From contig DAHXNY010000009.1 of assembly GCA_027365175.1 (NCBI GenBank), forward strand, positions 1-36,199: a stretch of DNA of 36,199 nt, written 5' to 3'. The position numbers were made by a program, and so were the translations under genes. Below, piece by piece: positions 3,160-12,710 of this stretch (the stretch's first letter is position 1; every line of letters begins with the position of its first letter). The notes under the pieces are model-generated. The model worked only from the letters and a program-made list of their open reading frames with translations, was not told the origin of the DNA and made no database searches. Source of the DNA: Microcaldota archaeon. Lineage in GTDB: Archaea; Micrarchaeota; Micrarchaeia; Micrarchaeales; CABMGC01.

Positions 3160-3178
3160 GGAGAAGTGAAAGCTTGTT
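3160..3178 (+). other. 5' strand of the pre-23S processing stem
   Basis: GGAGAAG-(T)-GAAAGCTTGTT pairs with AACAAGCTTTCCTTCTCC at 6024-6041 (18 bp, one bulge). Confidence 0.8.
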
Positions 3179-6023
3179 AATTAAGCCACCTAGGGGATGG
3201 CTTGGCTCTAGCAGCGACGAAAGTCGTGGCAAGCTGCGATAAGCCCAGGGTAGGCGCATGTCAGCCTTTGAACCTGGGATTACTGAATAGTACGCTATGA
3301 ATAATGGCGTATGCAGACGCATGGAATTGAAATGACTTAGTACATGCAGGAAAAGAAAGCAATTGCGATACCGTAAGTAAAACGATTGAAAGCGGCACAG
3401 GGCAAACCGAATTCATGCTTGCGAAAGCATGTAGATGTGGGCAGTTTACTGCTCTATTGCAAAGCCGAAGGCTCTGGAAAGAGCTCTCAGAGAGGGTGAT
3501 AGGCCCGTAGGCGAATGCAATGGAGAGGCGCTGTAGAAGAGTAGCTCAGCTTTAGTATGTTGAGTGAATATGGGGGCATTAAACTCCAACCCTAAACATT
3601 GGCTAGAGACCGATAGAGAATAAGTAGCGTGAGCGAAAGCTGAAAAGAACCCGCACGCGCGGGAGTGAAATAGATCTGAAACTAGGTGGTTACAAGAAGG
3701 TACGGTGTGAAAGGGTAGAAGCATGCGGAAGCGAAGTGGCGGAAGCCATCAGCGACGCGTGTGGACCAATATCGTATCATTCTTCTTGAAGCAAGAGCCA
3801 GGGAGTGTATCGAAGTGGCGAGCTTAATCGCATAGTGAAAGCGAGGGCGCGCAAGCAATGAGGCGCCAGGCATGAAAATGCCCAAGTCACTTCTTTACGA
3901 CCCGAAGCCATTGTGATCTATTCGCGGCCAGGACGAAGCCGGATTTACATCCGGTGGAGGTCCGCTACCTGTCATGGTATATCCTGTTGGGTGAGCTGCG
4001 ATTAGGGGCGATAGACCACTCGAACATGGCAATAGCGGGTCCCCTCCGAAGTATCTTTAGGATAGCCTTTGGCGAGCTTGCATCTGCGGTAGAGCGACCG
4101 ATCAGAGTGCTTTGGGTCGAAAGGCCCTACACTCTTGTCAAACTCCGAATGCAGATGCTGCGTAGACCCAAGGAGTCGGGGATGTTGGGTAAGCTAGCAT
4201 CCCGTTGCTGAAATGACAGTTTCTAAGGTTAAGGTCCCTAAATCTTGGTTGAGTGCATCAAAGGAAGGCGTTGTCGTAGACAGTCGGGAGGTAGGCTCAG
4301 AAGCAGCCATCCTTCAAAAAACGCGTAATAGCGTACCGATTGAGACAATGCAGTCTGAAGATGGACGGGGCTAAACCAAGTACCGAAACCCTAGCGCCGA
4401 GAGGCGGGTAGGAGGGCGTGCTGTGCGGGCAGAAGTATGCTTTTGAGAGCATATGGACTGCGCAGCAGTGAAAATCCTGGTATAAGTAACAGCATATAGG
4501 GGTGAGAATCCCCTACGCCGAAAGCACAAGGTTTTCCTTGCAATGATCGTCAGCTGGGAGTTAGCCGATCCTAAGCCTGGAGCTAATCACTACCAGGCGA
4601 AAGGGAAGCATGTTAATATTCATGTGCCTAGAACGTAGGCGTGGCAACACAAGGCGTATTTCTGACGCTTGAGGATAGGTCTGTAAACAGGTCCAAATGG
4701 CTATGGAGTCTTATTATGAGGAGAAATAGCTAAATGAACTGACAATGGCCAAGTTCTTGAGCCAGTGAAAAGGGAATACGCAACAATCGTTCTAGATCGT
4801 ACCAAGAACCAGTACAGGTGCTGCTGGCTGAAAAAGCCAAGGCGTGTCAGGAGAACTCAGGTCAGGGAAATCGGCAAAATGGTGGTGTATGTTTTCTACA
4901 AACCATGTCTGCGCTTGGTAAGCGCAGATAGCATTAACAAGGGAAGAGCGACTGTTTATCAAAAACACAACTCGCCGCAAAGCCGTAAGGCCTAGTACAG
5001 CGGGTGACGCCTGCTCACCGCTAGTCCGCGAAACCCCAATTCAACGGGACTAAGCGCTAGCAAAGAGCGGGAGTAACTCTGACTCTCTTAAGGTAGCGTA
5101 ATACCTCGTCACTTAATAGGTGACTTGCATGAATGGCGTAACGACTCTTCTACTGTCCCGACCTGGGACCTGGTGAAATTACTACGTGGTGTACATGCCA
5201 CGTTCTCTCAGTGGGTAGCGAAGTCTCTATGAAACTTGACTATAGCCTGTTGCTGCTGAGTGAGAAGTGCTGCAAAGTGTAAGTGGGAGCGTCGAAGCCC
5301 TGATTCCGGTCAGGGTGGAGCGACAATGTAACACCACTCTGCGCTTTTTACTCGGCTAACCCAACAAGGGACAACAGCAGGTGGATAGTTGGACTGGGCG
5401 GTTGCTTTCGATAAAGAAACGAAAGTGATCAATGCTCTGCTTAGCTGGGTTGGAAACCCAGCGTTAAGCATAAAGGCAAATGCAGGGCTGACTGTATCTC
5501 GAAAAGCGGGAGATGCAGACTGGAAACAGTGACTTAACGAACGTTGGATGCTCTTTTAATGGGGCACCAAGCTGTCAAACAAGTTACTCTAGAGGTAACC
5601 GGTTCGTGGCGGGTGAGAGTTCACATCGACCCCGCCGTTTGATACACCGATATGGGCTCATCTCATCCTGGCGGTGCAGGAGCCGCCAAGGGTTGGACTG
5701 CTCGTCCATTAAAGAGATACGCGAGCTGAGTTCAGTACGTCGCGAGACAGTACGGTAGCAACTACTGGGAGTGTAAGTGTCAGAGGATAAGAACTTTTTA
5801 ATACGAGAGGAACGAAAGTTCGGCGCCTCTAGTGTACCGGTTGTCATTATGGCATTGCCGGGTAGCCACGCGCTAAGCGGATAAGTCCTGAAAGCATATA
5901 AGGACGAAGCCGCATCCGAAACGAGACACTCAGTGCGGCCATAGTACATGGCCTTGATAGGGCGGGCGTGTAAGCAGGGAGCTAACGCGACCTGTGAGCG
6001 CACCGCAACTAACGCATTACACA
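3179..6023 (+). rRNA. 23S (LSU) ribosomal RNA, approximate ends
   Basis: 5' 'AAGCCACCTAGGGGATGGCTTGGCT'; GTPase centre 'GGCTCAGAAGCAGCCATC...CGCGTAATAGC'; 'CGAGAGTTCACATCGAC'-like PTC region; sarcin-ricin 'TACGAGAGGA'; enclosed by a processing stem. Confidence 0.97.
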
Positions 6024-6041
6024 AACAAGCTTTCCTTCTCC
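6024..6041 (+). other. 3' strand of the pre-23S processing stem
   Basis: AACAAGCTTTCCTTCTCC, complementary to 3160-3178. Confidence 0.8.
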
Positions 6042-9327: not shown

Positions 9328-10062
9328 ATGGTTGAGATAAAACTATTCAAGGACTACAATATTTCAGGCTATACTGTCATCGAGGGCTTCCCGAGTGCAG
9401 GTCTCGTAGGCCCGATGGCCGTCAGCTATATGATAGACAAACTAAAGCCAGAGTACATCGGATACATAACAAGCCAGAGGTTCCCTCCGATAGCGGCGAT
9501 ACACAATGCAATACCTATGCATCCTGCAAGGCTCTACAAATACGACAAGCTGAAGATAATACTGGTAATGGCAGAGTTTGTCATACCTGCCGATGCTGTC
9601 AGCGACGTTGCGATGGAGCTCATCTCATTCTGCAAGAAGAACAAGATAAACCAGATCTTCTCGATAAGCGGCATGGCTATGAAGAAGCCAAAGGACAATA
9701 TCTATTTAATAGGGCCGCAAGACATGCTGAAGAAAGCGGTTTCCAACAGCATAAAGCTGATAACCGAAGGGGCAGTGGCCGGAGTGAATGCCATACTGCT
9801 GATAAATGCGCAGCAGTACGGGATAAAGGCGGCAAACGTCCTAGTGGAGGTAGATCCGGCAATTACTGATCCGAAGTACGCCGAACTGGCAATAGAGGGC
9901 CTTCAGAAGCTAATATCCCTGGATATAGATCTGCAGGAGCTTGACAAGGAGGCAAAGATAGTAGAGGCTAAGATACGGGATATGCTGAAGAACGTAAAGG
10001 ACACGCACGAGCAGTATACCAGCACGGCAGAATCGACAAGTGGACCTTCAATGTACGCATGA
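9328..10062 (+). CDS. Proteasome assembly chaperone (PAC2) family protein
   Basis: 'VIEGFPSAGLVGPMAVSYMIDKLKPEYIGYI' and overall length typical of archaeal PAC2 proteins. Confidence 0.9.
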   Translation: MVEIKLFKDYNISGYTVIEGFPSAGLVGPMAVSYMIDKLKPEYIGYITSQRFPPIAAIHNAIPMHPARLYKYDKLKIILVMAEFVIPADAVSDVAMELISFCKKNKINQIFSISGMAMKKPKDNIYLIGPQDMLKKAVSNSIKLITEGAVAGVNAILLINAQQYGIKAANVLVEVDPAITDPKYAELAIEGLQKLISLDIDLQELDKEAKIVEAKIRDMLKNVKDTHEQYTSTAESTSGPSMYA

Positions 10063-10075
10063 TAATGCTTATGCT

Positions 10076-10180
10076 GCAGGGGTTGCAGAGTCTGGTTTGG
10101 CAAAGGAGCCACAGAAAAACGCGCAGGACTTAAGATCCTGTGGCCTAGCGCCTTCGTGAGTTCAAATCTCACCCCCTGCA
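10076..10180 (+). tRNA. tRNA-Leu(UAA) with an enlarged D-arm
   Basis: Acceptor GCAGGGG/CCCCTGC-A, anticodon arm CAGGA-CTTAAGA-TCCTG, long variable arm, T-arm GAGTTCAAATCTC. D-arm region ~20 nt longer than in tRNA-Leu(CAG) at 17743. Confidence 0.85.
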
Positions 10181-10183
10181 CAT
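10129..10183 (+). repeat. 55-bp direct repeat, left copy (att-like), within tRNA-Leu(UAA)
   Basis: CTTAAGATCCTGTGGCCTAGCGCCTTCGTGAGTTCAAATCTCACCCCCTGCACAT, identical to 11655-11709. Confidence 0.97.
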
Positions 10184-10213
10184 GCTTCAGACTCTGTTTC
10201 ATGAAAAGTTTTA

Positions 10214-10232
10214 AATAAACATATTGTTTATT
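10214..10232. promoter_or_regulatory. Palindromic candidate operator of the abiE operon
   Basis: AATAAACA-TAT-TGTTTATT, between/overlapping a TATA-like 'TTTTAAATAA' and the ATG at 10241. Confidence 0.6.
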
Positions 10233-10240
10233 ATTGATAT

Positions 10241-10846
10241 ATGGTAACTCTGACAAAAAAGGTTACAGAAGCCATTCAGAATTCGCCTTCAGGCATAGCT
10301 ACACTGGAAACGCTGGAAAGCCTCAAGCTCTCCGATGACTTTACCATGAAGACGACATTGAGTAGGCTTGCTATATCAAATAGAATCATCCGCCTTAAGC
10401 GCGGAGTATATTCTACAAATCCGATGGCAGATGCCCTTGTAGCGGCACAGTACACATTCAATGGCTATATTGGATTCACCAGCGCATTATATGTGCATAG
10501 GCTAATCTCTGAAATGCCATTCGTTGTGACGGTCGTAACCACTAACAAATCCGACTTGAAGGTTTTTGGGCCATACGAATTCAGAGCCGTAGCCTTGAAC
10601 GGCAAGGCCATAGGCTTCGAGAATATCGGCAACGTAACCGTCTCAACTAAGGCAAAGACCCTATTTGATTGCCTGTATCTCGAAAGATACTCGATAGAAC
10701 GTGACAAGCTCATTGAATCATACAAAAACACTTCATTAGACTCCAAAGAAGTACAAGAGTTTGGTTCATACGTAAAACGCTTTATTCCAAACAAGAAGCG
10801 AAGCAACTTCGATAAGACTATAAGGAAAATAATGGGCAAGATTTAA
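10241..10846 (+). CDS. AbiEi-like antitoxin / winged-helix regulator
   Basis: N-terminal wHTH-like region, 'RLKRGVYSTNP', 'GYIGFTSALYVHRL'; translationally coupled (TAATG) to an AbiEii-like gene. Confidence 0.8.
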   Translation: MVTLTKKVTEAIQNSPSGIATLETLESLKLSDDFTMKTTLSRLAISNRIIRLKRGVYSTNPMADALVAAQYTFNGYIGFTSALYVHRLISEMPFVVTVVTTNKSDLKVFGPYEFRAVALNGKAIGFENIGNVTVSTKAKTLFDCLYLERYSIERDKLIESYKNTSLDSKEVQEFGSYVKRFIPNKKRSNFDKTIRKIMGKI

Positions 10847-11640
10847 TGGAACTGGATTTAGAGATATGTAGGACAATCGCTATCCGCTACGGGCTTCCTC
10901 TGCAATTTGTATTCAAAGAGTTTCATCTGATGAACGTGATAGCGCATACATCCACATTTGTTTCCAAGCATCCTGACTCGCTGGTATTCAAAGGTGGCAC
11001 TGCACTTAACAAAGTGTATTTGCAGAAGACACAAAGGTTCTCTGAGGATGCAGATTTTGACCTGGTCATGGAAAACTCGCGAATGCACCTGTTAAAATTT
11101 AGCAGGGAACTTGCAGACTCATTGGAAGAATACAGGATTGAAGAATTCCGTAAGGTCCATTCAACTCTGCAATTTTATTGCACGTACACTACGCCTCTCG
11201 GAGGTGCAGATCATGTCAGAATAGACATTGCACCCAAAAAACTTCTCACCGCAAAACCACTAGCGCGGCTTCAGATAACCTCTACATTTACCCATTCATC
11301 TGTAACTGGGATCAGCATGTATTCCATAGAAGACCTTACTGCACGCAAGATGAATGCTCTTGCAAGCCGTTCAGAGGGCAAAGACATGTACGACGTGCAT
11401 GCGGCTTTGCCCATGTGCTCTAAAAAGGTTCTTAAGAAAGCCATCATATCGATGCTCGAATCCGAGGGTGCAAAAGAAGGTGCTGATGAATTTGTTTACA
11501 GGGCAATCAATAACGTCAAGAAAAGCGATATTAAAAAACTGCGCAACCTAACAAATCCGTTTATACCTGCGATGTACAGGCCGAAAAGCTGGGAAGAGCT
11601 AAAGAACGATATGCTTATGCAGTTGGATACCTTGAGATAA
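10846..11640 (+). CDS. AbiEii-type nucleotidyltransferase toxin
   Basis: 'LVFKGGTALNKVYL...RFSEDADFDLV' (GGTxLxK / SxDxD nucleotidyltransferase signature), 'GKDMYDVHAAL'. Confidence 0.9.
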   Translation: MELDLEICRTIAIRYGLPLQFVFKEFHLMNVIAHTSTFVSKHPDSLVFKGGTALNKVYLQKTQRFSEDADFDLVMENSRMHLLKFSRELADSLEEYRIEEFRKVHSTLQFYCTYTTPLGGADHVRIDIAPKKLLTAKPLARLQITSTFTHSSVTGISMYSIEDLTARKMNALASRSEGKDMYDVHAALPMCSKKVLKKAIISMLESEGAKEGADEFVYRAINNVKKSDIKKLRNLTNPFIPAMYRPKSWEELKNDMLMQLDTLR

Positions 11641-11654
11641 TCATAGGCAATCGG

Positions 11655-11709
11655 CTTAAGATCCTGTGGCCTAGCGCCTTCGTGAGTTCAAATCTCACCC
11701 CCTGCACAT
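11655..11709 (+). repeat. 55-bp direct repeat, right copy: displaced 3' fragment of tRNA-Leu
   Basis: Identical to 10129-10183; upstream 'caatcgg' cannot form the anticodon stem, so it is a non-functional fragment. Confidence 0.97.
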
Positions 11710-11789
11710 CTAATCTATGGAGACAAATCAGAGTTCGAAAGTCAAGGAAACAAATCTTCAGAAAGAAAGATTTCAGCAGACCATCCGGA

Positions 11790-12710
11790 TCAGTGCATGT
11801 TCTGCAGTCTCTTTATCCTCTCCTCTATGGGCGGGTGCGTCGAAAAGAGACCGGTAACAGACTGCATAGTTATCGGATTTGAGAAGTAGAGATATGTCGT
11901 TACGGGATTTGCATAATTCCCACTTTGCTTCGCAGCAGCTGCTTTCTGCGGATTCTGTGAAAAGTCCTTTATCTTGCCAAGGGCGCTTGCCAGAGAGGCA
12001 GGATCCCTTATCATTCTTGCCCCGTTTGCATCCGCCATATACTCCCTTCTTCTAGATATGGCAAGCCTGAGGAGCATTGCAACCAGCGGGGCCAGTATCG
12101 CCAACGCGAGCTCTATGATCAATACAAGCCCGCCGTTGTTCCTGTTGCCTCCTATGCCTCCAAAGAAGAAAGAGTATCTGAAGAAAGCTGCAATTATTCC
12201 TATCACTCCTCCAAAGACAATCGCAAGCATCATGAACTGTATGTCGTTGTTGTATATGTGCGATATCTCATGGGAGAGAACGCCTTCAAGCTCCTGCCTG
12301 TTCATCATAGAGAGAAGGCCCGTCGTAACTGCTATAGAGGCATTGTTCCTGTTCCTTCCAGTTGCAAAAGCATTAGGGTCCTTTGTGTCTATGACGTACA
12401 CTTTCGGCATCTTTATCTGCCCTGCTGCCGCGAGTCCACCTATTATATCATAAAGCATAGGATAGTCCTTCTGGCTTGCGGGCTTAGCCCTTGATAACTT
12501 AAGCACGGTGCTTGCCCCGTAGAAGTATGAAAAGAGCGCATACGCTACTATTATTATGCCTCCCACAATGAGTCCGAACAAGCCTCCTCCGAGCAGCCAC
12601 ACTACCAAGTATACTACTGCAAAGAAGAAGAGAGAGAAGAGCATCATGAGTATTATCGACTTTAGCCTGTTTCTTGCTATCTCGTCAAAGAAGCTTGCCA
12701 CTCCAATCAC
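11790..12710 (-). CDS. htpX: HtpX family M48 zinc metalloprotease
   Basis: 'LEGVLSHEISHIYNNDI' (HExxH), N-terminal TM helices, 'SRRREYMADANGARM'. Confidence 0.96.
   Translation of the reverse strand: MIGVASFFDEIARNRLKSIILMMLFSLFFFAVVYLVVWLLGGGLFGLIVGGIIIVAYALFSYFYGASTVLKLSRAKPASQKDYPMLYDIIGGLAAAGQIKMPKVYVIDTKDPNAFATGRNRNNASIAVTTGLLSMMNRQELEGVLSHEISHIYNNDIQFMMLAIVFGGVIGIIAAFFRYSFFFGGIGGNRNNGGLVLIIELALAILAPLVAMLLRLAISRRREYMADANGARMIRDPASLASALGKIKDFSQNPQKAAAAKQSGNYANPVTTYLYFSNPITMQSVTGLFSTHPPIEERIKRLQNMH

Follow-up and report, generated by a model that had tools for sequence, protein, structure and literature searches.

An integrase-free AbiE toxin-antitoxin cassette at tRNA-Leu(UAA) of a Candidatus Micrarchaeota genome

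The AbiE segment at the PAC2-tRNA-Leu-M48 locus

The window analyzed here (the whole stretch of 36,199 nucleotides) corresponds to contig 29 of a Candidatus Micrarchaeota MAG with a 795-kb genome. The features around the tRNA-Leu(UAA) gene, in order along the forward strand, are the following.

9328-10062, forward: PAC2-family gene (PF09754), upstream flank conserved in synteny
10076-10180, forward: tRNA-Leu(UAA), complete, the attachment gene; anticodon TAA in loop CTTAAGA
10129-10183, forward: proximal 55-bp direct repeat (attL core), found by repeat search at 100% identity
10214-10232, forward: 19-bp palindrome AATAAACATATTGTTTATT, overlapping a TATA-like AT-rich promoter and exact across type-1 loci
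10241-10846, forward: AbiEi-like antitoxin/regulator, 201 aa (PF13338, E 2.6e-4, under Pfam's cut-off)
10846-11640, forward: AbiEii-like nucleotidyltransferase, the predicted toxin, 264 aa (PF08843, E 3e-24)
11655-11709, forward: distal 55-bp direct repeat (attR), the displaced tRNA-Leu 3' half (55/55 match)
11722-11787, forward: tRNA-Leu integrase gene remnant, 5' end only (76% over 66 nt, E 3e-9)
11790-12710, reverse: M48 peptidase gene (HtpX-like, PF01435), downstream flank conserved in the genus

The initial annotation had described the two 55-bp segments as identical, as spanning the tRNA from anticodon-loop position 32 to just past the discriminator base, and as enclosing only AbiEi-like and AbiEii-like genes, and our results agreed with it on all three points. 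The repeat is exact, its first base is C32 and its last lies 3 nt beyond the discriminator A; its match score of 55 compares with a best score of 12 for shuffled flanks. The distal copy begins 14 bp past the abiEii stop codon, and the two genes between the copies form an intact pair with matches to PF13338 (sub-threshold) and PF08843. A tRNA island is recognized by an intact tRNA gene on one side and a displaced 3' fragment on the other, and both are present here.

ARAGORN placed the tRNA at 10100-10181, i.e., with a late start, because the D-arm has an extra hairpin; the 108 nt at 10076-10183 are 82-100% identical to those of relatives across the order. The tRNA-Leu(UAA) genes of the order share a 20-odd-nt D-loop insertion with a UGGC/GCCA hairpin (10096-10121 in the window; also loci L094, L100, L059 and L040), which is either an enlarged D-arm or a short intron, and the UAG and CAG tRNA-Leu genes do not carry it. 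Elsewhere in the window, an archaeal 23S rRNA gene lies at 3169-6029 and no 16S rRNA gene was found, reflecting either unlinked rRNA genes or the limits of the contig.

The start codon of abiEii overlaps the stop codon of abiEi (TAATG). PF13338 was matched by 10 of 13 members of the AbiEi family, which share many invariant residues, with a best E of 3.5e-6; when the window protein was assessed for a winged helix, its match fell below the threshold and its structure model was poor (pLDDT 61). In AbiEii, the motifs KGGTA, RFSEDxDFD and EGKD are invariant, so that the catalytic motifs are intact, and the model (pLDDT 84) had JHP933 and MenT3/TglT as its nearest PDB folds. The toxin MenT3/TglT acts on tRNA 3' ends, to which it adds nucleotides (PMC10435456). 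The palindrome AATAAACATATTGTTTATT was exact in all type-1 loci of the order that reach the promoter and was present in none of the AbiE loci from other orders; from this conservation, it is probably the AbiEi operator. Close protein relatives of this AbiEii are annotated Candidatus Micrarchaeota. None was found on any phage, plasmid or viral contig searched, and therefore no donor element was identified.

In this genus the PAC2, tRNA-Leu and M48 peptidase genes are adjacent, and the AbiE pair was absent from the locus in the same-genus genomes. One of them (G004) represents an empty site, in which the M48 gene directly follows tRNA-Leu across a gap of ~37 bp. Two others (G003 and G005) have different short intergenic DNA, and a fourth (G001) has another module of 1.0 kb, in which a 39-bp tRNA fragment comes after a methyltransferase gene. 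Therefore, the site accepts various insertions, and the AbiE pair is one of them. The insertion into tRNA-Leu(UAA) that had been proposed initially is thus borne out by the empty site of a related genome. As a separate observation, locus L109 (G035:C25) was identical at every base to the G001 locus wherever the two were compared. G035 is assigned to another genus and has a second PAC2 gene (on C9), and C25 is probably a misbinned contig.

Distribution and spread of the cassette family

AbiEii proteins of this type (58-70% identity) were found in 19 of the 164 genomes of the order, with the next tier at 40% or less. In 14 of these 19 genomes, abiEi starts 59-196 bp past a co-oriented tRNA-Leu gene, with the isoacceptor UAA in 3, UAG in 6 and CAG in 5. 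The other five comprise one locus after a tRNA-Leu fragment (G009), one within an array, 3.5 kb downstream of the tRNA (G151), and a further three with no tRNA-Leu nearby. G033 and G070 have an identical locus and were counted as one event. Of 13 loci analyzed, 10 had a distal tRNA-Leu fragment scoring higher than any shuffled sequence; three loci have a tRNA and no distal fragment. The repeat of G134 is identical at 73 of 74 nt and, like that of the window, starts in the anticodon loop. Repeat extent varied among loci from 23 to 83 nt, with one repeat running 46 nt beyond the tRNA, and therefore no single crossover point can be defined. Archaeal att sites may extend to the D-loop or beyond the tRNA end (PMC8371274).

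Such integrase-free cassettes occur in tRNA-Leu genes of two archaeal families. Most cassettes of the family contain AbiE alone, with other genes following within a few hundred bases. This AbiE-only layout occurs in about a dozen genomes, most of which have a tRNA-to-ATG gap of 59-104 bp. Two genomes (G015 and G149) carry extra cargo of 3-4 kb encoding a heavy-metal P-type ATPase and a MerA-like oxidoreductase; these islands with metal-resistance-like cargo (L093 on G015:C23 and L134 on G149:C9) lie at tRNA-Leu(UAG). Homologous AbiE pairs from other orders (46-57% identity) adjoined tRNA-Leu at none of the 12 loci for which 1 kb or more of upstream sequence was available, as judged with a tRNA library from this order and with ARAGORN as a second detector. 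The association between AbiE and tRNA-Leu therefore seems to have arisen within this order.

G046 and G018 come from different families and carry the cassette at UAG and CAG tRNAs; their AbiEii proteins are 86% identical and their RpoB proteins 57%. The corresponding AbiEii and RpoB values were 83 and 60% for G149 and G030, and 85 and 64% for a third pair, and over all pairs the two identities were weakly correlated (r = 0.18). On the AbiEii tree, the host-family label required 5 changes, compared to 6.0 after shuffling, and at least 3 are forced by well-supported branches. By these sequence comparisons, AbiEii identities of up to 86% between families with an RpoB identity of 57% show that the cassette family moves horizontally among host families and between isoacceptors, as the movement suggested in the initial annotation implies.

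A second AbiE subtype provided the most sharply defined boundary. A unit of 1,548 bp is 95.7% identical in G040 and G017, which belong to different families, and both ends of the match fall within tRNA-Leu fragments. In these genomes, units of this subtype are part of tandem arrays, one with three modules and one with four. The arrays (L105, G040:C1:201000-212000; L148, G017:C14:72000-86000) are situated at tRNA-Leu(UAG) and bounded by tRNA-Leu 3' fragments, with AbiE, an archaeal ATPase and an integrase among their modules. Further modules at tRNA-Leu without an integrase encode VapBC, AAA_14 and ATPase_2 proteins, or an AbiE subtype in reverse orientation. One VapBC-only cassette of 0.68 kb (L204, positions 1114-1879, on G040:C1) lies directly between tRNA-Leu(CAG) and a tRNA-Leu fragment.

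Integrases at tRNA-Leu genes and the origin of the cassette

The initial annotation had reported that the island lacks an integrase and had likened its signature to that left by tyrosine integrases of the SSV/pNOB8 type. The cassette indeed contains no integrase gene, and the genome search found no member of the matching clade in the window genome, whose sole PF00589 protein (on C27) falls outside the tRNA-Leu integrase family; the AbiE cassettes likewise lack an integrase. In relatives, a clade of integrases 76-83% identical to the G052 protein directly followed tRNA-Leu at 16 of 16 loci examined (G043, G031, G052, G038, G047 and 11 further genomes). In other genomes, more distantly related integrases of the family follow Glu, Val, Lys and Pro tRNAs (L164-L176), which suggests that the target switched from clade to clade. 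A tyrosine-integrase origin is thus supported by the presence of this family in relatives, but the SSV type is not: the candidate integrases match PF00589 and not PF16795 (Phage_integr_3), the domain of SSV-type suicidal integrases (PMC8371274). The integrase ORFs of relatives read through the tRNA 3' half (L059, L206, L213 and L138). We considered a split SSV-type integrase and do not claim one, as the putative N-terminal piece is common to the elements at the DNA level but out of frame in most of them; an ATG opens it in frame only in G052 and G001. PF00589 ORFs that are open through the tRNA possibly represent a second origin of integrases with the attachment site in their own gene.

The integrase remnant of the window, identified by comparison with the intact integrase start of G043, reads TPCTSNLWRQIRVRKSRKQIFRKKDFSR in frame and lies immediately outside the distal 55-bp repeat. 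G010 has the order tRNA, AbiE cassette (of another subtype), fragment and broken integrase. This order suggests that an integrase element was present first at the site and that AbiE was later inserted beside the tRNA. Within the order, this AbiE and a clade integrase were seen together only in G043, where the integrase gene is intact, and in G151, where it is broken.

These findings bear on how the minimal cassettes arose, for which the initial annotation had offered movement in trans or loss of the integrase. Each could be a separate deletion remnant of an autonomous tRNA-Leu element that carried both an integrase and AbiE, in which case movement without an integrase would never have occurred. 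Element right-end sequence is retained between AbiEii and the fragment in G032 (E 2e-8) and is present, along with AbiE and 4.3 kb of cargo, in G015, and G134 retains ~100 nt of an integrase start between the tRNA and AbiE, all as expected from deletions. However, the recurrence of the AbiE-only layout, with a tRNA-to-ATG spacing of 59-104 bp in most cases, the failure to find any element with an intact integrase and type-1 AbiE, and the 1,548-bp integrase-free unit that ends in tRNA fragments in two families argue against it. We consider independent deletion unlikely, at something over one chance in five; that many genomes share one minimal unit favors, on comparative grounds, an integrase-free mobile cassette.

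Less probable still is spread by homologous recombination between tRNA-Leu 3' ends, which share the T-arm and acceptor, with no integrase involved. Repeats of variable length that may pass the tRNA end, and 3' sequence common to all target tRNAs, would be compatible with such a process, to which we assign perhaps a tenth of the probability. On the other hand, the perfect or near-perfect short repeats of the window and G134 start in the anticodon loop, as for the SSV1 integrase, whose strand exchange borders this loop (PMC8371274), and the very sites in question are also used by elements with an integrase, of which remnants persist there.

A functional tie, e.g., AbiEii attacking tRNA-Leu, rather than integration specificity, might also have placed AbiE beside this tRNA, and the MenT3-like fold of the AbiEii model, that of a modifier of tRNA 3' ends (PMC10435456), is in keeping with it. 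We rejected this very improbable explanation because unrelated cargo (VapBC, ATPases, methyltransferase and integrases) uses the same sites; AbiE homologs of other orders, moreover, were not near tRNA-Leu at any of the 12 loci examined. Finally, an assembly artifact or local tandem duplication might be suspected in a MAG, and several related contigs stop at the tRNA or inside AbiE, but this is scarcely credible given the empty site and the same architecture in many independent assemblies, including the single-contig G032.

Proposed mechanism and comparison with known systems

Altogether, we favor, with a probability of about 0.65, the reading that the window segment is a non-autonomous tRNA-Leu cassette that was integrated in trans by an integrase of the clade described above and is kept by its toxin-antitoxin pair; it is probably a hitch-hiking mobile unit dependent on the integrases of other elements. 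Against this reading count the co-occurrence of this AbiE with a clade integrase in only two genomes of the order, the variable repeat limits, the loci that lack a distal fragment or a tRNA, and the pieces of integrase elements kept in G032 and G134. The cassette would carry a stretch of the tRNA-Leu 3' half as its attachment site together with one toxin-antitoxin operon. Its circular form would recombine with the chromosomal tRNA-Leu(UAA), restoring the tRNA with the cassette's own 3' half (from 10129) and leaving the displaced 55-bp half downstream. Recombination would be catalyzed in trans, most likely by a tRNA-Leu-specific tyrosine integrase like those of relatives, and, judging from the remnant, an element of this kind was at the site before. 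Excision of related elements in trans is reported for archaeal integrases (PMC8371274). Once integrated, AbiEi may repress the operon at the conserved palindrome and counteract AbiEii, a predicted MenT/AbiE-type nucleotidyltransferase, and loss of the cassette would therefore be penalized, a form of addiction. It is plausible that the pair stabilizes the cassette in this way, as the initial annotation proposed.

More tentatively, and at somewhat less than even odds, the tRNA-Leu genes of the order may serve as integron-like platforms, at which resident or passing integrases capture small integrase-free cassettes that accumulate in tandem and spread between families. Under this reading, many of the captured cassettes are toxin-antitoxin pairs, and tandem integrase-free modules were observed in G040 and G017.

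Compared to tRNA islands and archaeal elements of the SSV1, pNOB8, pTN3 and pT26-2 types, the cassette is alike in its insertion into a tRNA gene, the restored tRNA, the displaced 3' fragment, tandem accretion and the tyrosine integrase family at the site. It differs in its size of only 1.5 kb, in being an integrase-free unit, and in that the candidate integrases belong to PF00589 and not PF16795. An autonomous integrative element has its integrase within the island, whereas only abiEi and abiEii lie between these repeats. Integron arrays are made up of small units that lack a recombinase of their own and include many toxin-antitoxin pairs, and the tRNA-Leu arrays resemble them in all of these respects. 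In contrast to integrons, the site of insertion consists of the tRNA-Leu gene and its fragments, insertion beside the tRNA is deduced from module order, and neither IntI nor attC was recognized.

The pair resembles AbiE type IV toxin-antitoxin and MenAT systems in having an AbiEi-like regulator followed by an AbiEii nucleotidyltransferase in one operon; it differs in that its AbiEi-like protein is divergent, and the toxin role is a prediction from sequence. Hitcher and satellite elements that need a helper (PMC11389934), such as pSSVi with SSV2, are similar in that the cassette, too, appears to depend on the enzyme of another element; for the cassette, however, no helper replication, packaging or transfer functions were identified. 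In the literature searched, which covered few subscription papers, we found no report of AbiE type IV systems inside tRNA-Leu or of such cassettes in Micrarchaeota. Each part is of a known kind, and minimal toxin-antitoxin cassettes in tRNA-Leu arrays across archaeal families were not found described in that literature.

Here a mobile toxin-antitoxin pair is pared down to two genes plus a piece of tRNA, and it crosses archaeal families and accumulates in arrays without its own recombinase. It also offers a well-bounded mobile unit in Micrarchaeota, which have very small genomes and mobile elements little described in the literature searched. With a named candidate helper integrase and matching empty and filled sites, the question of what keeps tiny islands and toxin-antitoxin pairs moving becomes directly testable.
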